Shown: positions 5,467-57,421 of the stretch, piece by piece
Layout: every line of letters starts with the position of its first letter
Numbering within the stretch: the first letter of the stretch is position 1
From: Kineosporiaceae bacterium SCSIO 59966
GTDB taxonomy: Bacteria > Actinomycetota > Actinomycetes > Actinomycetales > SCSIO-59966
NCBI GenBank assembly: GCA_020881835.1
Contig: CP052876.1
Location: 2,728,001 to 2,792,000 of the forward strand
Direction: 5' to 3'
Length of the DNA: 64,000 nucleotides
Made by a program: the position numbers and the translations under genes
Notes under the pieces: model-generated
The model's input: the letters and a program-made list of their open reading frames with translations, nothing else
Told to the model about the DNA's origin: nothing
The model's database searches: none

Positions 5467-6254
5467 GCAGGTACGGGGCGGGCGGGCCGCTGGCGATCGC
5501 GCACCGCGGCGGCGCGGCACTGGCGCCGGAGAACACCGTCGCGGCGTTCGAGCGGTCCCTCGCCCTCGGCTACCGGTACCTGGAGACCGACGTGCGGGTG
5601 ACCTCGGACGGCGTCTGCGTCGCCGTCCACGACCGCGGCCTGCGGCGGGTCACCGGCGTCGCCGGCCGCGTCGCCGACCTGTCCTGGGACGACGTCCGGT
5701 CGCTGCGGGTCCTCGGCCGCGAGCCGGTGCCACGGCTGGACGACCTGCTGACGCGCTGGCCGGACGTCCGCTGGGTGCTCGACGTCAAGCAGCCGGAGGC
5801 GCTGTCCTGCCTCGTCGCGACGGTCCGGGACTGCGGGGCGGCGTCCCGGGTCTGCCTCAGCGGCACGTGGGACCGCTGGCTGGGGCACGCCCGCCGCGCA
5901 CTGGGACCGGACGTCACCACCGCACTAGGCTGGCGGTCCCTGGTGTCCCTGCTGCGGGGCGCGAGCCCGCGATCGGACGGCGCCGGCTTCGCGCACGTGC
6001 CGCTGCGGTTCGCCGGCCGGCGGCTGCCGTCGGCCCGTCTCGTCGAGCGGGCGCAGGCCCTGGGGCTGCGGGTCGTGGTGTGGGGCGTCGACGACCGGGC
6101 CGAGATGCACCGGCTGCTCGACGACGGCGTCGCCGGCGTCATCACCGACCGCACCGACGTCCTGCGCGAGGTGCTCGTGGCCCGGGACGCCTGGACGGCG
6201 CCTGCCGACGACTCCCCTCACCCCACCGAGGGTTCGCGCCTGCAGTGGCGGTAA
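5463..6254 (+). CDS. Glycerophosphodiester phosphodiesterase
   Basis: A 263-residue GDPD of the TIM-barrel family, expected to cleave glycerophosphodiesters to glycerol 3-phosphate and an alcohol. The metal and catalytic residues are visible in AIAHRGG (His near residue 15), APENT, YLETDVRVTSDGV and VAVHD, and the C-terminal strand GVAGVITDRTDVL is typical. There is no signal peptide, so it is probably cytoplasmic. The GTG start overlaps the glycosyltransferase stop by 4 nt. The last eight residues (GSRLQWR) and the TAA stop come from a 70-bp palindromic element, so the natural C-terminus has been altered by that insertion. Confidence 0.9.
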   Translation: MSRYGAGGPLAIAHRGGAALAPENTVAAFERSLALGYRYLETDVRVTSDGVCVAVHDRGLRRVTGVAGRVADLSWDDVRSLRVLGREPVPRLDDLLTRWPDVRWVLDVKQPEALSCLVATVRDCGAASRVCLSGTWDRWLGHARRALGPDVTTALGWRSLVSLLRGASPRSDGAGFAHVPLRFAGRRLPSARLVERAQALGLRVVVWGVDDRAEMHRLLDDGVAGVITDRTDVLREVLVARDAWTAPADDSPHPTEGSRLQWR

Positions 6255-6300
6255 CCGGGGCCGTTTCGAGGCGGATTCACCGCCACTTCGTCAGCGAACC
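6231..6300. repeat. 70-bp palindromic element, copy A
   Basis: An imperfect palindrome of exactly 70 bp. It opens GGTTCGCGCCTGCAGTGGCGG and closes CCGCCACTTCGTCAGCGAACC. It is shared by two convergent genes: the left arm encodes the last residues and TAA stop of the glycerophosphodiesterase, and the right arm encodes the last residues (EVR) and TGA stop of the YciI protein. Four more full copies and one half copy occur in this window. It could act as a bidirectional terminator, but no U tract is visible. Confidence 0.85.
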
Positions 6301-6596
6301 TCGCCTGCAGCGTCGGCCCACGGGCCGATCACCGGCGTCCACTCGGTGACGGTGTAGCCGGCGACGATCCCCTCCCTGCGGAACGGGTCCCCGGCGACGA
6401 GCTCGGCCACGGCGTCCTTGTCGGGCGCCCTGACGACGATGAGCGCGCCGTGCGGCTCCCCCGGGGCGTACGCGCCGGCCGCCACGACCACCCCCCGGTC
6501 GGCGAGGTCGCGCAGGTAGGCGCGGTGCTCGGCGCGGTGGGTGTCACGGGCGGCGGTGTCCTCGGTGTAGGCGTAGTGCAGGGCGTAGACCGGCAT
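6291..6596 (-). CDS. YciI family protein
   Basis: A 101-residue protein with the YciI/muconolactone-isomerase-like dimeric alpha-beta barrel. It starts MPVYALHYAYTED and has the ALIVVRAPDKDAVAELVAGDPF block, which carries the conserved His/Asp-type pocket surroundings of the family. No definite reaction can be assigned; members have been linked to small-molecule dehydrochlorination-like chemistry or remain uncharacterised. The ATG chosen is where homology begins. The last codons and stop lie inside the 70-bp palindrome that also ends the convergent gene. It stands alone on the minus strand, about 100 bp downstream of pxpC. Confidence 0.82.
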   Translation of the reverse strand: MPVYALHYAYTEDTAARDTHRAEHRAYLRDLADRGVVVAAGAYAPGEPHGALIVVRAPDKDAVAELVAGDPFRREGIVAGYTVTEWTPVIGPWADAAGEVR

Positions 6597-11214: not shown

Positions 11215-12638
11215 CGGCGGGACCCGGCCAGCGTGCGGTGAGCGAGCGTGCGGTGGGCGAGCGTGCCGTGAGCGAGCGTGCCGTGGGCGAGCTGCACGCC
11301 GCCCTCCCGGCCGACGTCGTCCTGACCGACCCGGCGAGCACCGACGCCTACCGGCGGGACCACGCCGGGTTCGGCCCGGCCGGCGTCCCGCTGTGCGTGG
11401 TCCGCCCCACCTCTACCGAGCAGGTGCAGGAAGTGCTCCGCTGGGCCACCCGGCACCGGGTCCCCGTCGTGCCGCAGGGCGCGCGGAGCGGCCTGTCCGG
11501 TGGGGCGAACGCCGTGGACGGGTGCGTCGTCGTCTCGATGACCCGGATGGACCGCATCCTCGAGATCGACCCCGTGGACCAGGTGGCGGTCGTCGAGCCG
11601 GGCGTCGTCAACGCGGTGCTCTCGCGAGCCGTCCTCGAGCAGGGGCTGTTCTACCCGCCCGACCCGTCGTCGTGGGAGATCTCGACGATCGGCGGCAACA
11701 TCGCCACCAACGCCGGAGGCCTGTGCTGCGTCAAGTACGGGGTGACCACCGACTACGTCCGCGGCCTCGACGTCGTCCTCGCCGACGGGCGGCTGCTGCG
11801 GACCGGACGACGGACGGCGAAGGGCGTCGCCGGGCTGGACCTCACCCGCCTGGTCGTCGGCTCGGAGGGGACGTTGGGTGTCGTCACCCGGGCCACGCTG
11901 TCGCTGCGCCCGGCGCCGCCGCCTGCCCTCACCGTCGCGGCCGTGTTCGGCGCCGTCCCCGCCGCGCTGGCGGCCGCCAACCGCATCATGTCCAGCGGCC
12001 TGTCGCCGTCACTGCTGGAGTACCTCGACGCGACGACCGTCGCGGCGGTGCAGGCCCTTCGCGACATGGGGCTGCCGCCGGACGCCAGCGCGATGCTCAT
12101 CGCCCAGTCCGACCGGGCCGGGCTCGCCGAGCAGGACGTCGCCGAGATGGGACGCATCTGCGCCGACGAGGGAGCCGTGGACGTCGCGGTCGCCTCGGAC
12201 GCCGAGGAGTCGGCGCTGCTGCTGACCGCCCGCAGGATGGCGATCACAGCGCTGGAGCAGTTCGGCACGCTGCTCGTCGACGACGTGGCGGTGCCTCGCG
12301 CCAGGCTGGCCGACCTGCTCGCCGGTCTGGAACGGATCGCCGGGGAGCGCGACGTCCGGATCGCCTGCCCGGCGCACGTCGGCGACGGCAACACCCACCC
12401 CACGGTCGTGTTCGACCCAACCGACCCCGCAGCGGCCGAGCGGGCGCAGCTCGCGTTCGCCGACGTCATGCGGCTCGGGCTGTCTCTCGGAGGAACCATC
12501 ACCGGGGAGCACGGCGTGGGGCAGCTCAAGCGCTCCCTGCTGCGCACCGAGCTCGGCGAGGTCTCCCACGACCTGCAGCAGAGCATCAAGGACCTGTTCG
12601 ACCCCCTCGGCATCCTCAACCCCGGCAAGGCCCTCTAA
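11211..12638 (+). CDS. GlcD-like FAD-binding oxidase
   Basis: A 475-residue flavoprotein of the glycolate oxidase/D-lactate dehydrogenase (GlcD) family. The FAD-binding PCMH domain shows VPQGARSGLSGGANAVDG, PDPSSWEISTIGGNIATNAGG and VVGSEGTLGVVT. The FAD-linked C-terminal domain shows HVGDGNTHPTVVFD and GEHGVGQLKR, which carry the substrate-binding His residues. It should oxidise a 2-hydroxyacid; which one is open. The GTG start overlaps the preceding stop by 4 nt. Four 15-bp tandem repeats near the start (bases 11231-11290) encode RAVSERAVGE twice and offer several in-frame GTG codons, so the true start could be up to ~25 residues later. Confidence 0.88.
   Translation: MTAGPGQRAVSERAVGERAVSERAVGELHAALPADVVLTDPASTDAYRRDHAGFGPAGVPLCVVRPTSTEQVQEVLRWATRHRVPVVPQGARSGLSGGANAVDGCVVVSMTRMDRILEIDPVDQVAVVEPGVVNAVLSRAVLEQGLFYPPDPSSWEISTIGGNIATNAGGLCCVKYGVTTDYVRGLDVVLADGRLLRTGRRTAKGVAGLDLTRLVVGSEGTLGVVTRATLSLRPAPPPALTVAAVFGAVPAALAAANRIMSSGLSPSLLEYLDATTVAAVQALRDMGLPPDASAMLIAQSDRAGLAEQDVAEMGRICADEGAVDVAVASDAEESALLLTARRMAITALEQFGTLLVDDVAVPRARLADLLAGLERIAGERDVRIACPAHVGDGNTHPTVVFDPTDPAAAERAQLAFADVMRLGLSLGGTITGEHGVGQLKRSLLRTELGEVSHDLQQSIKDLFDPLGILNPGKAL
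11231..11290. repeat. 15-bp tandem repeat, four copies
   Basis: Four consecutive 15-mers of the form GCGTGC(G/C)GTG(A/G)GCGA lie within the first codons of the FAD oxidase gene. Copies 1/2 and 3/4 differ at the same two positions, which suggests the array doubled as a 30-bp block. Every copy contains an in-frame GTG. Confidence 0.9.
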
Positions 12639-12656
12639 CCCCCGGCCCACTCCCCC

Positions 12657-13225
12657 GTGATCATGCAATCCCGCCACCCCACCCCTTCCGTGATCATGCA
12701 ATCCCGCCACCCTGCCCACCCTCCCCGTGATCATGCAATCCCGCCACCCTGCAGCGTCACCAATTGCCTGCACAATGCTGAGCTGGCGGCACGACACGCC
12801 GGAAAACATGAAAGAAACCCAGCATTCTGCTGACGGACGCTGAGGCTCCCCGCGAGTCCACCGGCTCACCTAGGTGGTTGTCATGTCCAGAATGATCCGA
12901 CCGGGACTACGGAGTGCGGCACGTACGGAACCAAGGCGTGGTCATCCCAGAGCCACGCGTGATGAGTCGTTACGCGCCGTCCTCAGGAGGACAGCGTCCC
13001 CAGCAGCGGACGTGTGCGCCAAGACACTTGGCGGCAGGGGGGCGGACCGCAACAATCGCCTGAGTCCCCTCCGGCCACTCAGGAACTACGCCGCAAATGA
13101 GCAGGACCGAGAGCGTCGGACCATCACTACAGAAACGTACAGCATTTTGCGATGCAAACCTCGGGTACGGGTGGCGGGATTGCATGATCACGGAGAGGAC
13201 GGGGGTGGCGGAATTGCATGATCAC
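12657..13225. repeat. 22-nt repeat cluster 1 (3 forward, 2 reverse copies)
   Basis: Copies of a 22-nt motif (core TGATCATGCAATCCCGCC, preceded by G and followed by ACC) occur forward at 12657, 12690 and 12727. Reverse-complement copies occur at 13170 and 13204; the last has one change (GGAATTGC). Inside the arms sit GCACAATGCTG (12770), 21 nt after the innermost forward copy, and CAGCATTTTGC (13140), 19 nt before the first reverse copy, making the whole block symmetric. CAGCATTCTGC also occurs at 12820. A second cluster of the same kind lies at 42.6-43.1 kb. Confidence 0.9.
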
Positions 13226-13260
13226 GGGGGGAGGGCGCGATGGGGTTCGAGAACGTGAAG

Positions 13261-30420: not shown

Positions 30421-30440
30421 CCTGCGGCGGCCCTGCGGGG

Positions 30441-30510
30441 GGTTCGCACACCCAGCGGCGGCCCTGAGGCCCCTGACGGCCGGGTTTGACCGCCACTGGG
30501 TGTGCGAACC
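30441..30510. repeat. 70-bp palindromic element, copy B
   Basis: Exactly 70 bp, GGTTCGCACACCCAGCGGCG to CCGCCACTGGGTGTGCGAACC; flanking GGGG/CCCC extends the pairing. It lies 20 bp after the glnR stop and 55 bp before the AbiEi/DUF559 gene. It belongs to the GGTTCGCACACC/CGCGCACC subgroup with copy C. Confidence 0.85.
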
Positions 30511-30564
30511 CCGGCCTGTGGATGACGCCCGACGGCCAAGCGCGCGCCGAGGCACCCTGCCCGC

Positions 30565-31551
30565 GTGGACCCTCGGCTCGCAGCCGTCGCGGCAGAGCAC
30601 CACGGCGTCGTCACCCTCGCGGACGCCGAGCGGCGCAGGCTCACCCGCGCGTGCGTGCGCTGGGCGGTCGAGCGCGGCGACCTGATGCGTCTCGCGACGG
30701 GGGCGTGGTGCCCGCGGGAGGTGTGGGAGGCGTCCGACGACCGCCAGCGCCACCTCCTGCGGGTGCGCGCCGCCCAGAGTCGCCGCCCCCGCGCGGTGGC
30801 CTGCGCCGAGTCGGCAGCCGTCGTCCTCGGCCTGCCCCTTCAGACGGTGCCGCCAGACGCCCGGCTCACCGTGGCGCGCCAACCGCCCCGGCACGGCGGT
30901 TCCGGACGCCGCGGGTCGGCGCGCGGGCGGCGAGCCTGGCTCGACGACGACGAGATAGTCGTCGTCGACGGCGTCCGCGTCACCTCCCCGGCGCGCACAG
31001 TCGTGGACCTCAGCCGCCACGCGTCGTTCCCGTGGGCGCTGGCAGCCGGGGACGCCGCGATGCGGCTCCTTGGGATCAGTGCCGACAACCTGCGTGAGGC
31101 GGCCGACCGCAACCCGTGCGCCCCGGGGCACCCGAGGGCCGTCCTGGTCGCGCGGCACGCCGACAAGCGGGCGGAGTCGGCGTTGGAGTCGGTGGCCCGC
31201 GGCGTGATGATCCACCTCGGCCTGCCCCCGGCCGAGCCCCAGGTGGTGCTGCAGCAGGACGGCCTGCGCTACCGGGTCGACCTCTTGGTGCGGACCTGCT
31301 GGACCGTCGTCGAGGCCGACGGCAAGGTGAAGTACCGCGACGATGACCCCACCGCAGCTCAGCGGGTCTGGCTCGACAAGCGGCGGCGTGACGACCTGCA
31401 CGACTGGGGGCACGAGGTGGTGCGCTTCGTCATGGCCGATGAGCGCCACCCGGTCGCCTGGGGGCGCCGGTGCGTGCGGTCGTTCAACCGGGCCTACGAG
31501 CGCCGCGGCCTGACCACCCCTGACTGGGGTTCGCGCCTGACGTGGTGGTGA
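30565..31551 (+). CDS. AbiEi-like N-terminal domain / DUF559 nuclease-fold protein
   Basis: A 328-residue protein. The N-terminal ~90 residues resemble the winged-helix AbiEi_4 antitoxin-type domain (HHGVVTLADAERRRLTRACV, LMRLATGAWCP). The C-terminal third looks like the DUF559/Vsr-type PD-(D/E)xK fold, with RYRVDLLVRTCWTVVEADGK holding the Asp and the ExDGK triad. Such proteins occur as many paralogues in actinomycetes and have no proven role; an abortive-infection cognate toxin is not present. The last residues (GSRLTWW) and TGA stop come from a half copy of the 70-bp palindrome, and copies B and C bracket the gene. The GTG start is the first with domain homology. Confidence 0.75.
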   Translation: MDPRLAAVAAEHHGVVTLADAERRRLTRACVRWAVERGDLMRLATGAWCPREVWEASDDRQRHLLRVRAAQSRRPRAVACAESAAVVLGLPLQTVPPDARLTVARQPPRHGGSGRRGSARGRRAWLDDDEIVVVDGVRVTSPARTVVDLSRHASFPWALAAGDAAMRLLGISADNLREAADRNPCAPGHPRAVLVARHADKRAESALESVARGVMIHLGLPPAEPQVVLQQDGLRYRVDLLVRTCWTVVEADGKVKYRDDDPTAAQRVWLDKRRRDDLHDWGHEVVRFVMADERHPVAWGRRCVRSFNRAYERRGLTTPDWGSRLTWW

Positions 31552-31560
31552 TCGGGCCGC
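31528..31560. repeat. Half copy of the 70-bp palindromic element
   Basis: GGTTCGCGCCTGACGTGGTGG and the following TGATCGGGCC match the left arm of copies A and E, but the right arm is missing. The stop codon of the AbiEi/DUF559 gene falls at the same offset (bases 22-24 of the element) as the stop that copy A gives to the glycerophosphodiesterase. Confidence 0.75.
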
Positions 31561-31591
31561 GACGCCTCGCCCCGCCTCCCTCGGCCCCCGA

Positions 31592-31661
31592 GGTTCGCGC
31601 ACCGGGTGGCGGTGGAACACCCGGTTTCGGGGCCAGACCACCGCCACCCGGTGCGCGAACC
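31592..31661. repeat. 70-bp palindromic element, copy C
   Basis: Exactly 70 bp, GGTTCGCGCACCGGGTGGCGG to CCGCCACCCGGTGCGCGAACC; flanking CCGAGG/CCTCGG extends the stem. It lies between the AbiEi/DUF559 gene and the SNF2 helicase. Confidence 0.88.
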
Positions 31662-31733
31662 TCGGGGAAGGGGACGCCGGACGCCGGTAAGGTGCGGTGG
31701 CTGCGAGGACGTCGCACCGAGGGAGCCGTCGCT

Positions 31734-36991: not shown

Positions 36992-37408
36992 GACGGAACT
37001 GTCTGCCGGGGTCGGTGAACGGTGCACCTCACCGCCGGCTACGACGGCGTGAACATCCGCCGCTGCCCCGGCGAGCCCGGCCGGATCAGCGGGTGTAGTC
37101 GTCGTGGAGCCGCTCGATGTCGGCCTCGTCGAAGTCGCCGAACGCGATCTCCAGCACGCGGCCGGGTCGGCTCTGACTGTTACCCAGGCGGTGCAGACAG
37201 CCGGAGGCGACGAGCACCTGCCGCAACTCGGCGCACTTGGCCGCGGCGCTGCCAGAGCAACCTGTGGCTCAACCTGACCGCGACGACCTGCACCGTGATC
37301 AGCTCCACCATGACGGGCTCAACTGTGACGTGCGAGTCACGGTGTGCGACTCGATGAACATTGAGGAAACGCGATCAAGTGCCCTGCGTGTCGGGCGAGG
37401 AGTTAAGC
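36992..37408. other. Intergenic region with a possible gene remnant
   Basis: No intact gene was found. On the minus strand, bases ~37086-37250 read AKCAELRQVLVASGCLHRLG and, further on, RVLEIAFGDFDEADIERLHD, ending in a stop at 37086. The composition is protein-like but no start or family could be identified, so it may be the tail of a deleted gene. The end next to the GGDEF-EAL gene has a GAGGAG ribosome site. Confidence 0.35.
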
Positions 37409-39280
37409 GTGACCACCCTGACCGCCGACGTGCTCGGCTCGCTCAGCGCCACGCCGTTCATGGAGGACATCTCCCAGCCTGCGGAGTCGATCGACGCCTG
37501 GACCGCGGCCGACGAGGTCCGCCGGGTCTTCGGGCGGCGACCGGACCTCGACTCGCTGCTGGTGCGCAAGGGCGAGCAGGTCGGCCTGCTGATGCGGGAC
37601 GCCTTCGAGCGGGTGATGAGCGGACGCCTGGGCTACGGCAGCGCCCTGCACGGCCACCGTCCGATCGAACGGCTCACCGACTGGGACCCCCTCGTGCTGC
37701 CCGCCTCCCTGTCGGTCGTCGAGGCCACGTCGGTCGTGCTGCAGCGCAGTGACCACCGCCGGTACGACGACGTCCTCGTCCGACACGACGTCGGTCACCT
37801 GAGCATCGCGTCGGTCGCCAGGCTGCTCGAGGCGCTCACCGGCCAGCTCGCCCAGCAGGCCCTCACCGACCCGCTGACCGGCCTCGGCAACCGCGACCTG
37901 TTCCAGCGGGAGCTGGACGCCGCCACCACCCACCCGGACACTCGCGCGGCCGTGCTGTTCCTCGACCTGGACGACTTCAAACGCGTCAACGACACCCTTG
38001 GCCACCACGCCGGCGACCTGCTCCTCTCGGCGGTCGGACGCCGGATGTCCGCGGCCCTGCGCGCCCAGGACGTCGCCGTCCGCATCGGCGGGGACGAGTT
38101 CGCCGCGGTCCTGCGGCTCCCCATGTGCGCCGGCTGCCAGGCCGGCGGCCAGTGCCTCGGGACGGAGCTGGCCGAGGCCCGCACCATCGCCGACCGGCTG
38201 CTGCGCCGCTTCGACGACCCCTTCTCCGTCGACCGCCACCGCCTCGACGTCGGCGCGAGCGTCGGCGTCGCCGTCGCCGGTGACGCCGACTGCACCTCAG
38301 AAGCGCTGTTGAGCGTCGCCGACCACGCGATGTACCGGGCGAAGCACGACGGGGCCGTGCACGCCGAACTCGTCCGCAGCAGCACACCCCGCCAAGTCCC
38401 CGCACCACGCAGCGGCCCCCACCCGCCGACGGTCGGCCAGACACTGGTCACCGGCGACCTGCGCCTGCACTACCAGCCGATCGTCGATGTTACGGGCACC
38501 CGGCTCACCGGTGTCGAGGCCCTGCTGCGGTGGCAGCACCCCATCCACGGCCTGGTCGGCCCGGCGCGCCTCCTCGGTGAGATCACCCAGCACCGGCTCG
38601 CCCACGACCTCAACTCGTGGGTGTTCGAGGAGGCCTGCGCCCAGCTCGTCCGGTGGGACGCCACGGTCGAGCCCCACGCCGTCCCGTCGGTCAGCGTCAA
38701 CGCGAGCCTGCCCGGGCTCGCGCCGGGCCAGCTGCAGGACGCCGTCACCGCCGCCCTCGAGGCCAGTGGGCTCGAGCCGGCCCGGCTGCGCCTGGAGATC
38801 CCGGAGACCGCGACCCAGGACCAGCTCGCACCGGTGGCCGGCGACCTGCGCGCGATCCGCCAACTCGGCGTCCACCTCATCGTGGACGACGTCGGCACCG
38901 GCGCCGCGACGCTGCGGCACCTCAGCGAGCTGCTGCACGACGGCCTGAAGATCGACCGGTCCTTCGTCGCCGGGATGCTGACCAACGAGCGCGACCACGC
39001 CATCGTCCGGATGCTCGTCGAGCTGTCCCGGGTCGTCGGCGTCTCGATCGTCGCCGAGGGTGTCGAGACGCAGGAGCAGTGCGAGGCGCTGCGCGGCCTC
39101 GGCTGCCACGAGCAGCAGGGCTTCTTGCTCTCCCGGCCGGTCGGCGCGGACGTGATCGCGATGCTGATGCGGCAGCCCCCACCGGGGGTTCGCGCCGGTA
39201 GTGGTGGCGATCCAGCCCGCTCGGAGGCCACATCACGACCACTTCGGGCGCGAACCCCGGGGCGGGCCGACCGGGACTGA
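37409..39280 (+). CDS. GGDEF-EAL protein with CBS-like N-terminus
   Basis: A 623-residue cytoplasmic c-di-GMP enzyme. Residues ~10-140 look like a CBS-type sensory pair. The GGDEF domain (LTDPLTGLGNRDLFQRELD; RIGGDEF) has RAQD five residues ahead, an inhibitory RxxD site. It also contains an unusual Cys-rich insertion, MCAGCQAGGQCLG, just after the active site. The EAL domain keeps the catalytic set: EALLRW, VNASLP, LEIPETA, VDDVGTG, LKIDRSF, AEGVET and EQQGFLLSRP, so it can probably both make and degrade c-di-GMP. The GTG start has GAGGAG upstream. A 70-bp palindrome is inserted in frame at the 3' end and supplies the last ~30 residues. Confidence 0.9.
   Translation: MTTLTADVLGSLSATPFMEDISQPAESIDAWTAADEVRRVFGRRPDLDSLLVRKGEQVGLLMRDAFERVMSGRLGYGSALHGHRPIERLTDWDPLVLPASLSVVEATSVVLQRSDHRRYDDVLVRHDVGHLSIASVARLLEALTGQLAQQALTDPLTGLGNRDLFQRELDAATTHPDTRAAVLFLDLDDFKRVNDTLGHHAGDLLLSAVGRRMSAALRAQDVAVRIGGDEFAAVLRLPMCAGCQAGGQCLGTELAEARTIADRLLRRFDDPFSVDRHRLDVGASVGVAVAGDADCTSEALLSVADHAMYRAKHDGAVHAELVRSSTPRQVPAPRSGPHPPTVGQTLVTGDLRLHYQPIVDVTGTRLTGVEALLRWQHPIHGLVGPARLLGEITQHRLAHDLNSWVFEEACAQLVRWDATVEPHAVPSVSVNASLPGLAPGQLQDAVTAALEASGLEPARLRLEIPETATQDQLAPVAGDLRAIRQLGVHLIVDDVGTGAATLRHLSELLHDGLKIDRSFVAGMLTNERDHAIVRMLVELSRVVGVSIVAEGVETQEQCEALRGLGCHEQQGFLLSRPVGADVIAMLMRQPPPGVRAGSGGDPARSEATSRPLRARTPGRADRD
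39187..39256. repeat. 70-bp palindromic element, copy D
   Basis: Exactly 70 bp, opening GGTTCGCGCCGGTAGTGGTGG and closing ACCACTTCGGGCGCGAACC. It lies wholly inside the reading frame of the GGDEF-EAL gene and is read through without a stop. It is very similar to copy E, 640 bp away. Confidence 0.88.
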
Positions 39281-39445
39281 GAGGCGTTGCCCGCGTCAGG
39301 CGTTCGGAAGTTCCTCCGGGCCCGCCGGGGACTTGCGGTACCTCGGAAGGGGTCAGGCGCTCTTGCTCCCAGAAGACGTGCGCAAGAGCCTGTGCACACT
39401 CACTGAAAGCACCATCAAGGCTGGATGACCAAGGAGTCACCACGT
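39281..39445. other. Noncoding or decayed stretch after the GGDEF-EAL gene
   Basis: Nothing intact is visible. A short plus-strand frame ending LPEDVRKSLCTLTESTIKAG has protein-like composition and may be the end of a degraded gene belonging to the following remnant. Confidence 0.3.
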
Positions 39446-39690
39446 TGGTGCTGTCACGCAGGGTCACGCCTGCCGGCTGGCGTCTCGCCGGCGCCAGAGC
39501 GTTCTGGCACGCCGTGAGCCACGGACCGACCGCAGCGTTCCTGCCCACGCACGCGCACGCGCAGAAGATGCAGAGGGCCTTCGCAGCAGAGCTGCTCGCA
39601 CCGGCCGAAAGGAATCTCAGAACTCATCGGCGACCCTGCGACTGCCGTCGACGCCCAGACCGTCGACCACATCGGACCCAGCTCAGGACG
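39446..39690 (+). pseudogene. Fragment of an ImmA/IrrE-type (DUF955-like) protein
   Basis: Translation gives TPAGWRLAGARAFWHAVSHG and, after a short gap, MQRAFAAELLAPAE, the pattern seen near the C-terminus of ImmA/IrrE-type metallopeptidase-like proteins (arrangement R-x-FAAELLAPA). After a frameshift near 39612 it continues GISELIGDPATAVDAQTVDH in another frame. The N-terminal domain with the HExxH site is missing. It looks like a decayed antitoxin-like or phage-regulation gene. The assignment rests on short motifs. Confidence 0.5.
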
Positions 39691-39830
39691 ACATCGCCAG
39701 ACTGTCCACGCGCCTCGAGACCCTGCGTGCCGAGCTGATGTCAGGCACGGTCACCCAGACCCGGTGGATGATCGGTGTCATCACCGTGATGACCGCCATT
39801 GTCACGACGGCAACGCTCCTCGACGGGTGA
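39675..39830 (+). pseudogene. C-terminal fragment of a coiled-coil membrane protein
   Basis: Reads DDIARLSTRLETLRAELMSG followed by TVTQTRWMIGVITVMTAIVT and LLDG, then TGA. This is a short coiled coil with one C-terminal membrane helix, as in DUF1640-like proteins. No start codon lies upstream in frame, so it is a remnant. It lies between palindrome copies D and E. Confidence 0.45.
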
Positions 39831-39898
39831 CGTCGGGTACGCACCGTGGCGCCGCGCCGTCCTCACCGCCGTCCCCCACCGGAGTCCCCCTCAACGGA

Positions 39899-39968
39899 GG
39901 TTCGCGCCCGTAGTGGTGGTGATCCGGCCCGCGTGGAGGCCACGTCACCACCACTACCGGCGCGAACC
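39899..39968. repeat. 70-bp palindromic element, copy E
   Basis: Exactly 70 bp, GGTTCGCGCCCGTAGTGGTGG to ACCACCACTACCGGCGCGAACC; the most symmetric copy, with arms of about 30 bp. It ends 14 bp from the stop of the truncated phosphatase fragment. Confidence 0.9.
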
Positions 39969-39981
39969 CTAAGAAGCCGCG

Positions 39982-40152
39982 TTACCGCAGTCCGCGGGCC
40001 GCGTCGAGGAGCGCCTCGACCGCCGCGCTGGAGACCTCGACGGCCGCCGCCTGCTCGCCGCAGCGGGCCGCCAGCCCGCTGCGCAGCAACCGCTCGGCCA
40101 TCGGGGAGCGGCACACGTTGCCGGTGCAGACGGTGAGGATGCGGAACGTCAC
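39982..40152 (-). pseudogene. Truncated low-molecular-weight protein-tyrosine phosphatase
   Basis: Only 56 residues of a family that is usually ~150-190 long. The N-terminus is intact, VTFRILTVCTGNVCRSPMAE, with the catalytic CX5R loop, followed by RLLRSGLAARCGEQAAAVEV and a stop at DAARGLR. The general-acid Asp near the C-terminus is absent, so the product should be inactive. Truncation occurs right beside palindrome copy E, which suggests a deletion with an end at that element. Confidence 0.75.
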
Positions 40153-40211
40153 GGCACCAGTCTGGCGAGTGCGCCGACGACGCCGGCCGGCCCCGGGTGT
40201 CTACTGGGCCC

Positions 40212-40553
40212 ATGAACGTATGCATCCCCCTGGAGTCCGACGGCAGCACCGGACGGCGGTGGGGCAAGGCCGAGCGCGTCGCCGTCGCCGTCGTCGAGGA
40301 CGGCGACATCACCGACTGGCAGGAGCACGACGTCCGCTGGGACGTCCTGCACGACGAGGGCACCGAGGGGTCGCACCACGCACGGATCGCCCGCTTCCTG
40401 CGGGAGCACGACGTCGACGTCGTCGTCGCCGGCCACATGGGCGAGGGGATGACGCGCATGCTCGGCACGATGCAGATCCGCACCGTGCTCGGTGCCGGCG
40501 GCCCCGCCCGCGAGGCGGTCCGCGCCGCCCTGGCGGAGTCGGCCGCGGAGTAG
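40212..40553 (+). CDS. NifB/NifX-family (dinitrogenase Mo-Fe cofactor-like) protein
   Basis: A 113-residue single-domain protein starting MNVCIPLESDGSTGRRWGKA, with VDVVVAGHMGEGMTRMLGTM and IRTVLGAGGPAREAVRAAL, the RNase H-like NifX/NafY fold. In organisms without nitrogenase such proteins are uncharacterised metal-cluster or iron carriers. The WEHDVRWDVLHDE-like His/Asp segment could bind metal. The ATG was preferred over an earlier in-frame start because homology begins there. It is divergent from the truncated phosphatase. Confidence 0.8.
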   Translation: MNVCIPLESDGSTGRRWGKAERVAVAVVEDGDITDWQEHDVRWDVLHDEGTEGSHHARIARFLREHDVDVVVAGHMGEGMTRMLGTMQIRTVLGAGGPAREAVRAALAESAAE

Positions 40554-41631: not shown

Positions 41632-42633
41632 GTGAACGACGTCCGGATCACGACCCCCGACCACCTGGCTCCCGAGGACGTCGAGGCGGTCACCGCCCTG
41701 GTGGCCGCCGCCGCCGCGCAGGACGGCGCCAGCCCGGTGTCGGAGCACACCGAGCTCGCCCTGCGCCGGGGCGGGGACGGGCTGCGGCAGGTCCTCGCGC
41801 GCGCCGGCTCGGACGTCGTCGGCTGGGCGGGCGTCACCGGCGGGGGCCATGCCACCGGCGGGGACGATGCCACCGGCGGGGGCCATGCCACCGGCGGGGA
41901 CGATGCCACCGGCGGGGACGATGCCACCGGCGGGGACGGCGCGTCGGCCGAGGTCGTCGTCCACCCGTACCACCGCCGGCGAGGGATCGGCCGCCGGCTG
42001 GTGACCGCCGTCCTGGACCACGGGCCCCGGACGCGGTTCTGGGCCCACGGCGACCTGCCGGCGGCCCGGGCACTGGCTGCGGCCCTCGGGCTGGTGAAGG
42101 TGCGCGAGCTGTGGGTCATGCGCCGCCCGGCGACCGACCCGCTGCCCGACCTCACCGTGCCGCCGGGGGTGCGGCTGCGCGCCTTCCGACCCGGTCAGGA
42201 CGACGACGCCTGGGTCGCGCTCAACGCCGCCGCCTTCGCGGAGCACCCGGAGCAGGGCGCGATGACGGTGCGGGACCTGCGGGAGCGGATGGCCGAGCCG
42301 TGGTTCGACGCCGACGGCTTCATCGTCGCCGAGGACGCCGCGACCGGGGAGATGCTCGGGTTCCACTGGACGAAGACCCACCCCGCCGAGGGCGACCAGC
42401 GGCCAGTCGGAGAGGTGTACGTCGTCGGGGTGGCCCCCGCGGCACAGGGGCGGGGGCTCGGCCGGGTGCTCACCCTCGCCGGGTTGCACCACCTGGCCCG
42501 CCATGGTCTGGAGGAGGTGCTGCTGTACGTCGAGGCGGACAACGACCCCGCCGTCCGGGTCTACTCCGGCCTCGGGTTCACCCGCTCCTCCGCCGACGTC
42601 CAGTACGCCCACCCCCTCCCCACCCCTCGGTGA
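41632..42633 (+). CDS. mshD: Mycothiol synthase
   Basis: A 333-residue tandem-GNAT protein that acetylates Cys-GlcN-Ins to complete mycothiol, the main low-molecular-weight thiol of actinobacteria. The C-terminal, catalytic GNAT half has [40 protein letters not shown] and [17 protein letters not shown], all characteristic. The N-terminal GNAT half is interrupted at residues 70-105 by six hexapeptide repeats ([12 protein letters not shown]) encoded by 18-bp units. The GTG start was chosen by homology. The stop codon TGA lies in the first copy of the 22-nt repeat cluster that follows. Confidence 0.92.
41839..41946. repeat. 18-bp minisatellite within mshD
   Basis: Six 18-bp units (GGCGGGGACGATGCCACC and the variant with GGCCAT) in frame, encoding ([12 protein letters not shown])x6. 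Units alternate D and H types before two D types and a degenerate end, so the array grew by duplication of a two-unit block. Confidence 0.92.
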
Positions 42634-43104
42634 TCATGCAATCCCGCCACCCCCTCCCCACCCCAGCCCCCGCCCCCCTCGGTGATCATGCAATCCCGCC
42701 ACCCCGGAACACGTCCACATCGAGACGAGGTCGTATGACCGCCCCATGGCCCCACCTCGACCGCGTCGGCGAGAGCAGATGGACCCTCGCGGCCTTGGCA
42801 GGTCTGGCAGGTCTGGCAGCTCTGGTGACTCTGGCGGCGCTGGCGGCTCCGGCGACCCTGCGACGCTGGGCCCGCTCTCGGTCACGGAACTCGTTCGCGC
42901 GCGGGGTCCGCCACGGCCTAGCCGGCATGTCGCGCCCCGAACGCAGCATTCTGCGGGCCGGCCGCGGGGCCACGAGGCCCTGTGCGAGGTGGCGGGATTG
43001 CATGATCACCGAGGGGAGCGGGGGGGTAGGGCGGCAGGGGTGGCGGGAATGCATGATCACCGAGGGGGTGGGGGCGCGCAGGGTGGCGGGATTGCATGAT
43101 CACC
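42630..43104. repeat. 22-nt repeat cluster 2 (2 forward, 3 reverse copies)
   Basis: Forward copies of the same motif as in cluster 1 begin at 42630 and 42682; reverse copies begin at 42988, 43039 (one change, GGAATGC) and 43083. CAGCATTCTGC, the box found in cluster 1, lies at 42944, 33 nt before the first reverse copy. The first forward copy provides the mshD stop codon. The cluster fills almost the whole gap between mshD and ppk1. Confidence 0.9.
42704..42987. other. Central segment of repeat cluster 2, no supported gene
   Basis: The frame of ppk1 is open through this segment from an ATG at 42735 and would encode a hydrophobic Leu/Ala-rich stretch ([16 protein letters not shown]), generated by short GGTCTGGCA repeats. 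No family match or ribosome site was seen, and the frame crosses the reverse repeats, so it is not called. The region probably contains the ppk1 promoter. Confidence 0.4.
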
Positions 43105-43151
43105 GAGGGAGGGACGGGGCGGGTGGGGGGTGTGCCTGTCATGATGCAGGC

Positions 43152-56189: not shown

Positions 56190-56600
56190 TCAGCCGCGTT
56201 CGGCGTCCAGCTCGGCGAGCAGCCCCCGCACCAGCCGGTCGATCTCGTCCCGGATCGGGCGGACGTCCTCCACACCCTTGCCCGCCGGGTCCGGCAGGTC
56301 CCAGTCCAGGTACCGCTTGCCCGGGTAGAACGGGCACGCGTCCCCGCAGCCCATCGTGATGACGACGTCGGAGGCCTGAACCGCCTCGTCCTCCAGCTTC
56401 TTGGGCACCTCCTGGCGGATGTCGATGCCCACCTCCGCCATCGCCTCGACGACGGCCGGGTTCACCGTGTCCGCCGGCGCCGACCCCGCCGAGCGCACCC
56501 GGACCCGGTCACCGCCGTGGTGCTGGAGCAGTGCCGCGGCCATCTGGGAGCGGCCCGCGTTGTGGACGCAGACGAACAGCACCTCGGGTACGCGGTCCAT
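56190..56600 (-). CDS. arsC: Arsenate reductase, LMW-phosphatase type (ArsC)
   Basis: A 136-residue enzyme that reduces arsenate to arsenite with thioredoxin or mycothiol/mycoredoxin. The CX5R loop is VCVHNAGRSQ (Cys11, Arg17), and TMGCGDACPFYPGKRYLDWD holds the downstream Cys residues. The start at ATG is supported by AAGGAGATCCG upstream. A longer in-frame start would add a repetitive MTNETNQTNEMNETNER leader. It is the last gene of the ars operon and is convergent with pstB. Confidence 0.92.
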   Translation of the reverse strand: MDRVPEVLFVCVHNAGRSQMAAALLQHHGGDRVRVRSAGSAPADTVNPAVVEAMAEVGIDIRQEVPKKLEDEAVQASDVVITMGCGDACPFYPGKRYLDWDLPDPAGKGVEDVRPIRDEIDRLVRGLLAELDAERG

Positions 56601-56716
56601 CGGATCTCCTTGTCGCTCGTTCGTCTCGTTCATCTCGTTCGTCTGGTTCGTCTCGTTGGTCATGTCGCTGGTTCGTCCTGTCGCTCGTCGTCCGGGCCCG
56701 GACGACGTGGGCTGGC
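56601..56716. repeat. Intergenic TCGTTCGTC-type repeats between the two arsC genes
   Basis: Short TCGTTC/TCGTCTCGTT units repeat about seven times (about 56612-56690). On the minus strand they read ACGAACGAGA and could be translated in frame as Thr-Asn-Glu units, but the ribosome site at the downstream ATG argues that they form a leader or spacer. Confidence 0.55.
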
Positions 56717-57421
56717 TCACTCGGTCAGCTCGGCCAGCAGGGCCCGCACCCGCCGGTCCAGCTCCTCGCGCAGCTCGCGGACGCCGTCCAGGGACAGACC
56801 GGCCGGGTCCGGCAGGTCCCACTCCAGGTACGTCGTCCCGGGCACGATCGGGCAGGCGTCGCCGCAGCCCATCGTCACCACGACGTCGGCGGCGCGGATG
56901 ACCTCGTCGGTGATCGGCTTGGGGTAGGCGGTGCGCAGGTCGATGCCGACCTCGCCGAGCGCCTGGACGACCAGCGGGTTGAGCTCGCCCACCGGCTCGG
57001 AGCCGGCGGAGCGGACGTCCACCCTGCCGCCGGCGTGGTGCTCGAGCAGGGCGGCGGCCATCTGGGAGCGGCCGGCGTTGTGCACGCAGAGGAACACGAC
57101 CTTGGGCACCGGGCGACCGGTCAGCCCACGCACCTGGGCCAGGTCGGCGATCCGGGTGGCGGCGAAGTGCCGTGCCAGCAGGGGCAGGTAGGCCCGCACC
57201 GCCGCCCCCCGGGCGAGCAGCTGGTAGGAGTCCTGGACGAGGTCGTCCACCTCCTGGCTCGTCATCACCCCGCGGTAGCGGGCGGCGAGGTCGTCCGCGA
57301 CCCGGTGCAGGACCGCGCTGTGGTCCGTGCTGTCGCTGGAGCCGCGGCCAGAGGCCTGGGTGCTCACGTCGTCCTGCTTGCTCACGTCGTCCTGCTTGCT
57401 CACGTCGTCCTGGGTGCTCAC
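56717..57421 (-). CDS. Arsenate reductase with N-terminal three-helix domain
   Basis: A 234-residue two-domain protein. Residues ~30-100 form a helical bundle (AVLHRVADDLAARYRGVMTS, YLPLLARHFAATRIADLAQV) as found fused to actinobacterial ArsC-like arsenate-mycothiol transferases. Residues ~105-234 form an ArsC domain with FLCVHNAGRSQ and MGCGDACPIVPGTTYLEWDL. The N-terminus is a repeat of QDDVSK units encoded by an 18-bp tandem array. The GTG start overlaps the aquaporin stop by 4 nt. Two arsC types in one operon may use different reductants. Confidence 0.9.
   Translation of the reverse strand: MSTQDDVSKQDDVSKQDDVSTQASGRGSSDSTDHSAVLHRVADDLAARYRGVMTSQEVDDLVQDSYQLLARGAAVRAYLPLLARHFAATRIADLAQVRGLTGRPVPKVVFLCVHNAGRSQMAAALLEHHAGGRVDVRSAGSEPVGELNPLVVQALGEVGIDLRTAYPKPITDEVIRAADVVVTMGCGDACPIVPGTTYLEWDLPDPAGLSLDGVRELREELDRRVRALLAELTE
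57361..57420. repeat. 18-bp tandem repeat at the start of the fused arsC gene
   Basis: Just over three copies of TGCTCACGTCGTCCTGCT (plus-strand sense) at the very start of the minus-strand gene. They encode (DDVSKQ)n and each contains an in-frame GTG. Confidence 0.88.

Follow-up and report, generated by a model that had tools for sequence, protein, structure and literature searches.

A palindrome-flanked gene with AbiEi-like and nuclease-like regions, and its solo palindromes, in a Kineosporiaceae genome: a candidate mobile unit of Actinomycetales

The palindromes and the palindrome-flanked gene

The 64,000-nucleotide stretch of Kineosporiaceae bacterium SCSIO 59966 analyzed here (contig CP052876.1, positions 2,728,001 to 2,792,000; hereafter, the window) contains several related long palindromes, two of which (B and C) enclose a single gene, forming what we call the B-C unit, while two others (D and E) stand farther along, the unit lying 7.5 kb upstream of them. 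We read D and E, with a probability of about 0.6, as solo copies of a palindrome that is recognized, and probably spread, by the AbiEi-like/PD-(D/E)XK-like nuclease of the B-C unit.

The unit spans 1,223 bp (30440-31662), from palindrome B at its left end (30440..30511) to palindrome C at its right end (31591..31662), neither being assigned to a strand, as is the case for all palindromes described here. Its gene (30565..31551, plus strand) encodes an AbiEi-like DNA-binding region followed by a PD-(D/E)XK-like (DUF559/MTES_1575-like) nuclease region in which the conserved residues are present. A half copy of the palindrome, comprising its left half only (31527..31560, no strand), overlaps the 3' end of the gene, whose frame stops inside it. 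The identity between B and C is 69%, close to the family-wide pairwise median of 0.68.

Residues 4-183 of the unit protein match an AbiEi profile of PADLOC (E 2.5e-16), and Pfam AbiEi_4 is matched at 26.2 bits (cutoff, 25). In an alignment of 66 homologous proteins, from which three shorter than 280 aa were left out, E208, D239, E250, G253, and R274 (window numbering) occur in all 66, Q226 in 65, and K256 in 63, a pattern that a functional PD-(D/E)XK nuclease should show; a catalytic role for these residues is predicted from the family pattern. Pfam searches of the family return AbiEi-type and DUF559/MTES_1575 models and one chance-level match to NHase_beta_C, with no Y1 transposase, and Rfam gives 0 matches on eight unit loci. 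Compared with solved structures, a 12-member profile has a weak match to 3hrl, annotated as "Endonuclease-Like Protein" (E 0.33). We know of no role established for AbiEi/DUF559-like homologues.

The unit shares with the type IV toxin-antitoxin system AbiE the N-terminal AbiEi match and the association with inverted repeats: according to PMC3985639, the sites of AbiEi at its own promoter are inverted repeats, paired in a 23-3-23 bp layout and with 11-bp ends. Because of this known binding, the palindromes of the unit are plausible binding sites for its protein. The unit differs from AbiE in the C-terminal nuclease-like region and in having palindromes that stand on both sides of the gene and are also dispersed. 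A single gene likewise lies between the palindromes at two homologous loci, L205 and L208 (gene typing covering the DNA between the palindromes), and the median unit length of 1,279 bp leaves little room for a second gene the size of the AbiEii nucleotidyltransferase toxin. With one gene between its palindromes, the window unit is probably something other than a simple toxin-antitoxin pair of the AbiE type. That it is nonetheless an AbiE-like defense or addiction gene, with palindromes that mark or protect self DNA, strikes us as very improbable: up to 10 of 12 family members are hit by AbiEi profiles of PADLOC and the nuclease-type residues are kept, but the gene stands alone between its palindromes in the window, with no AbiEii toxin in the unit, and is nearly absent from plasmids (3 of 72,556 records, at 34.9-36.5% identity over 42-52% of the protein).

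D (39186..39257) and E (39899..39969) are long imperfect palindromes with a 70-bp core of the form GGTTCGC...GCGAACC, and a covariance model of the family recovers them as solo copies with E values of 5.3e-14 and 1.5e-14, respectively. A 23-mer of the D/E type, with up to three mismatches allowed, has four matches in the window, versus a mean of 0.00 over 100 shuffles. The initial annotation of this locus, made from the sequence alone, had described D and E as two near-identical palindromes; they are indeed real palindromes beyond chance, but with a mutual identity of 87% over 71 bp, that wording is too strong. At this value (0.87), the pair ties with one other for the highest likeness among the 12 copies in the genome. 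Placed in the same orientation with a spacing of 642 bp (785 bp with both ends included), D and E are the solo copies closest to the B-C unit, at 8.2 and 8.9 kb from its middle.

The palindrome family in the genome

Searching the 3,095,448-base genome for the end pattern gave 14 places, 12 of which are palindromes and two of which (at 340515 and 1953693) are not; a covariance model built from 11 copies recovers the same 12, with the next match at E 0.21. The copies measure 70-72 bp and end in GGTTCGC. When they are aligned, 85.6% of stem cells are paired, versus 36-45% when the partner is slid by one to three columns; 8 of the 24 stem pairs have changed on both sides, and 7 of 24 are invariant by selection, the copies having been chosen by those ends. 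Covariation lies above all 500 shuffles in three of five measures, the other two being reached by 55 and 190 of the 500. The arms of the palindromes have drifted yet stayed largely complementary, the end block used for selection excepted.

Ten of the 12 copies stand outside the B-C unit. One of them, the solo palindrome A (6230..6301), overlaps the 3' end of the minus-strand gene to its right and, by sequence reading, that of the gene to its left. Four of these 10 lie within 45 kb of the unit, a clustering matched by 29 of 200,000 random placements; when D and E are counted as one copy, the figure is three of nine, matched in 316 of 200,000 random trials, the 45-kb limit having been chosen in both cases after the positions were known.

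Two familiar kinds of hairpin were considered and set aside. Intrinsic terminators do not fit, as there are 0 terminator-like sites in 38900-40400 and only 0-4 T in the 15 nucleotides after each of the 12 copies, and integron attC sites were dropped for an end motif whose orientation is wrong for R boxes. In 197 other genomes of the order, the covariance model gave no strong match, only single ones in three of them (E 4.6e-4 to 0.008). One of these weak matches is part of a 108-bp palindrome with repeated GGCAGGCG motifs at locus L066 (1485-1592, in family f18), which represents a further palindrome family.

Palindrome-gene-palindrome units in other Actinomycetales

Among 396 genomes of the order, the GGTTCGC end pattern has at least one place in 155, mostly one to three; only three genomes have at least seven, namely, the window genome (G000, 12), G276 (9), and G223 (7), followed by two with six. 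G276 and G223, which come from a different family, have a distinct palindrome of the same plan: with a wider gap allowed, each has nine places, of which seven (G223) and nine (G276) are palindromes, five and seven of these, respectively, being nonunit copies. Both genomes were found by the palindrome end pattern, independently of the unit protein, and in both, two palindromes enclose a homologue of the window unit gene, between eno and psuG (these names, like clpP and clpX below, come from a reading of translations, without a family search). Two palindromes enclose the unit gene in all three genomes with at least seven end-pattern places.

With the window protein as the query, homologues of the unit gene occur in 92 of 169 genomes of the order. 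We compared the surroundings of 72 homologue loci, a nonrandom sample comprising 30 machine-returned loci of top hits (that of the window included), 40 hand-picked ones (mostly taken by rank order, with extra ones from genus g57), and L205 and L208, found through their palindromes; L232 was dropped for a short flank, leaving 71 with both flanks. The upstream and downstream flanks share a match of at least 40 bits in 53 of these 71, compared with 22 of 4,970 cross-locus pairs (for the most part between orthologous sites or related genomes) and 2 of 344 ordinary genes encoding 250-450 aa. By source, the pass rate is 17 of 29 machine-returned loci, 34 of 40 hand-picked loci, and both L205 and L208. 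Median values for the shared repeat are 78 bp for its length and 17 bp for the distance from the stop codon to its downstream start; the repeat is direct in 29 cases, inverted in 24, and palindromic (score of at least 10) in 47 of 53, versus 7 of 300 random pieces. The 10th percentile of unit length is 1,166 bp.

Five of the 53 flank matches (139-304 bp) are far longer than one palindrome; the nuclease genes at L254, L271, L291, and L239 have flank repeats of 168-304 bp. A near-perfect 68-bp palindrome, GGTTCGCGAACGCTCGCC..., was also seen at L186 (1501-1568) in genome G174.

When 69 loci are sorted only by palindrome score, 25 prove to have a palindrome on either side of the gene, 23 are one-sided, and 21 have none (L263, L268, and L295, which have no tblastn hit, were left out of these pairs and included in the flank test). 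In 20 of the 25 two-sided loci, the two palindromes are 0.61-1.00 identical, the window unit being the lowest; across loci, identity averages 0.36 with a maximum of 0.61. By comparison, 1,005,675 bases of other actinobacterial DNA (67 loci) hold 56 palindromes of span 40-125 and score of at least 14, and a single case of two matching palindromes less than 3 kb apart, at a locus without a homologue. Eight of the 20 paired units carry, in one or both palindromes, a motif that recurs within the arm at a spacing of 19-20 bp (counted at a match score of at least 8), amounting to four copies per palindrome; this arrangement is not seen in the window's own palindromes. The palindrome-gene-palindrome plan is thus widespread in Actinomycetales, with units that have their own palindromes and with solo copies dispersed in three genomes.

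Differences between genomes at shared sites

Six genomes of genus g57 could be compared at the eno-psuG spacer. The unit is present in G223, G276, and G295 and absent from G121, G358, and G149; in G295, the gene is confirmed by profile and the 3' palindrome is worn to about 12 bp. In G121 and G358, the spacer holds a solo palindrome from a different family; its identity to the worn flanks of a unit located elsewhere in G121 is 71-75%. The spacer of G149 holds an unrelated hairpin. This pattern would fit either gain or loss of the unit. Solo palindromes of a CGAGACGA-motif family stand between eno and psuG in two species, at L298 (2911-2968) and L300 (2903-2968), and match the worn flanks of a nuclease unit in L295.

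The orientation of the unit is opposite in different genomes at two other sites, one of which lies between clpP-like and clpX-like genes; there, the host flanks agree at 79-91% and the unit genes at 65-74% where aligned, and the unit genes of L251 and L290 do not align at all. The unit gene is more diverged than the flanks at shared sites (67 versus 88%; 65 versus 85-91%). Flank homology ends within 8 bp of the palindromes on both sides at L251 and 35 and 58 bp short of them at L290. In G223, solo copies are clustered around the unit, two of the five standing on its contig (p 0.006). These signs fit gain, loss, and local spread, and they would be compatible with more than one enzyme and with past activity.

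The same comparisons bear on an alternative in which nothing moves: an AbiEi-like protein would regulate itself, the palindromes would be operators or transcription ends evolving together with it, and the solo copies would be further operators of this protein. We consider this unlikely. It draws on the binding of AbiEi to inverted repeats at its own promoter (PMC3985639), on a stop codon within 65 bp of about 13 of the 21 solo copies with a fetched locus (open reading frames [ORFs] were called with a simple GC-position rule, which makes all distances to stop codons approximate), and on the motif repeated within palindrome arms in 8 of 20 units, which is reminiscent of multimeric binding sites. 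It leaves unexplained, however, the matching palindrome after the gene, the copies at the 3' ends of unrelated genes, the clustering around the unit, and the presence or absence of whole units between congeners; as for transcription ends, the hairpins have no T-run and so are not canonical intrinsic terminators.

Proposed activity of the unit protein

Recognition and spread of the palindromes by the unit protein, as proposed above, would proceed as follows: the AbiEi-like region would bind the palindrome, the nuclease region would cut at it, copying or recombination would carry the unit to new sites between genes, often close to stop codons, and solo palindromes would be moved in trans by the same protein. 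Binding, cutting, and movement are each predicted.

Several observations weigh against this proposal. With respect to the repeats, 18 of the 71 loci fail the 40-bit flank test, including the window unit itself (34.6 bits), whose right end consists of the half copy plus C, and the flanks of two more homologues, L119 and L115, both from background contigs, share no repeat whatever (the frame of L115 does not reach the nuclease motif). With respect to the protein, the matches to nuclease families lie under the Pfam cutoffs (13.4 bits versus 20.6 for the window protein and DUF559; 17.9 versus 38.2 bits for the G223 homologue and MTES_1575), and an AlphaFold model, made from two sequences, is poor (mean predicted local distance difference test score [pLDDT], 50), so that the nuclease fold is argued from sequence motifs and subthreshold Pfam matches. 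With respect to movement, no transposition or excision event was seen in the genomes compared, and clustering around the unit is unclear in G276 (one of seven solo copies lies on its contig; p 0.17). Nor do the flanks reveal a hairpin target: insertion into the loops of host hairpins, an idea suggested by the eno-psuG spacers, was rejected, as complementarity between a copy's own two flanks, in 12 + 15 copies, does not exceed that of re-paired flanks (p = 0.47 and 0.76).

The closest parallel is with repetitive extragenic palindromic (REP) sequences and their REP-associated tyrosine transposases (RAYTs), known together as REPtrons. In both, a single enzyme gene lies between two palindromes, gene and palindromes differ together among genomes, the gene evolves faster than its neighbors, and solo copies are often near the 3' ends of ORFs (PMC2817692 and PMC3733652 for REP/RAYT). 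Solo palindromes are also dispersed in both, with 10 nonunit copies in G000, 5 in G223, and 7 in G276. The enzymes differ, being AbiEi-like plus PD-(D/E)XK-like here and a Y1/HUH (IS200/IS605-like) transposase in REP/RAYT, as do palindrome size (about 65-90 bp for most paired palindromes here versus 20-40 bp for REP), the end tags (the ends of the window palindromes have no GTAG or CGTC tag), and copy number (7-12 per genome in the three genomes counted, REP being of high copy). In our reading, the unit would work like REP/RAYT, but it is not a member, given the absence of a Y1 transposase and the differences in palindrome size, tag, and copy number. To DUF559/Vsr-like (REase_MTES_1575) endonucleases it is linked by the conserved E..Q..D..ExDG..K pattern, although the matches here are below Pfam cutoffs, and to transposons and miniature inverted-repeat transposable elements by its presence or absence at the orthologous eno-psuG site.

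A broader generalization, which we advance tentatively and would not yet call probable, is that these units are widespread single-gene mobile elements of actinobacteria in which an AbiEi-derived binder joined to a restriction-endonuclease-fold nuclease recognizes end palindromes of about 70 bp and spreads both the unit and nonautonomous palindromes. The elements would then be a nuclease-based counterpart of REP/RAYT, with an enzyme unrelated to known transposases and, in some units, four motif copies per palindrome. Among the papers listed by searches of open-access PMC (for AbiEi with palindromes, 20 of 39), none appears to describe DUF559/MTES_1575 or AbiEi units with palindromic repeats. 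Should the flanking palindromes be the substrate of these proteins, many genes now labeled "hypothetical" would form a class of mobile elements, the spread of small intergenic palindromes by non-RAYT means would become a testable question, and a way would be suggested in which an antitoxin-type DNA-binding domain could join a selfish element.

Genes and DNA around D and E

Upstream of D lies a gene overlooked in the initial annotation, encoding a GGDEF-EAL protein (37361..39280, plus strand). Its ORF runs through D, which sits inside the 3' end of the frame, and stops 23 bases past it; by Pfam, the EAL domain (residues 361-593) is complete, and is already so upstream of the start of D. On the far side of E, a low-molecular-weight protein-tyrosine-phosphatase gene is cut to a stub of 56 residues (39982..40152, minus strand), as first described, matching positions 1-42 of 144 of Pfam LMWPc. 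Its nearness to the palindrome also stands, with 12 bp between the end of E (39969) and the stop codon, close to the 14 bp originally given.

The stub keeps 13-14 tail residues, followed by these 12 bp, before E, and its last 14 residues have a weak likeness to the C-terminal 40 residues of 15 phosphatase homologues (p = 0.034 by shuffling). If the likeness is real, it is a hint that the middle of the phosphatase was lost and its end kept, that is, by an internal deletion, and that E would stand at the natural 3' end. No phosphatase motif was found on the fetched stretches of 67 loci (neighboring iron-molybdenum [FeMo]-cofactor-type protein, 47-68% identity; 84,980 species genomes scanned). 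The search for relatives, which took genus and family first, returned 38 genomes, all of other families of the same order.

The D-E interior (39258..39898, no strand) is decayed, with a G+C content of 67.8% versus 74.3% for the window; 3.5% of window segments of equal length are as low. It contains two open frames without clear relatives. The first (39445-39633) had been taken for the remnant of an ImmA-like gene, a label that finds no backing: there is no Pfam match, no convincing relative (best E 0.002 per genome, besides itself, in the 396 genomes of the order), and no match among the 72,556 plasmid records. The second (39651-39827) had been read as the remnant of a coiled-coil membrane protein and does have a weak CCDC90-like match, but a subthreshold one (E 0.009; 16.3 bits versus a cutoff of 33.5); its matches in the 396 genomes are weak (best E 5.8e-4), and there are none in the plasmid records. 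Neither a profile search, nor tblastn with 66 proteins, nor blastn against the B-C interior detected a significant trace of a nuclease gene between D and E; the best tblastn value, E 0.006 from one query of 66 on a tiny target, is not significant.

These searches bear on the idea that D and E once bounded a single unit whose nuclease gene was later lost or replaced. The tie of D and E as the most alike pair, their 642-bp spacing in the same orientation, and the usual likeness of the two palindromes of other units (20 of 25 pairs) favor it. The lack of any recognizable nuclease remnant between them and an interval that, at 785 bp, falls below the 10th percentile of unit length speak against it, and on balance we think it improbable. 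D and E may have been inserted separately, or they may be the ends left by a unit that lost its gene.

Long palindromes are known to provoke deletion, and an event of recombination or slippage, whether it joined D with E or took place at E, was originally offered as the cause of the loss of parts of the phosphatase and of the genes between the palindromes. The odd 3' ends of both genes beside the palindromes and the decay of the D-E interior would agree with such an event, and one site in another genus, with a whole unit in some species and not in others, speaks for palindrome involvement in general. Yet recombination of two direct copies would leave a single copy where two are present; neither gene is cut at a palindrome, as the EAL domain beside D is intact; and the gap in the phosphatase lies 13-14 codons plus 12 bp from E, with a kept tail that weakly resembles a normal C terminus. 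Deletion by the palindromes has their proximity as its sole support, and the available evidence leans against it; we hold it to be quite improbable, less so only than the defense reading. The D-E interval is probably ordinary decaying intergenic DNA between two palindrome insertions, and its deletions need not involve D or E.

Other repeats in the window

A second repeat, with the core GTGATCATGCAATCCCGCCACC, occurs at 12638-12755, 13169-13242, 42611-42710, and 42985-43120, in a layout of two to three direct copies followed, roughly 280-410 bp on, by two to three inverted ones, at two places 30 kb apart. An 18-bp tandem repeat of several GGCGGGGACGATGCCACC-like units lies at 41802-41953, within a frame that reads as acetyltransferase-like. 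At 56208-57109, blocks of 198 and 177 bp are each repeated 518 bp apart at 74-77% identity, which suggests a tandem gene or domain duplication.

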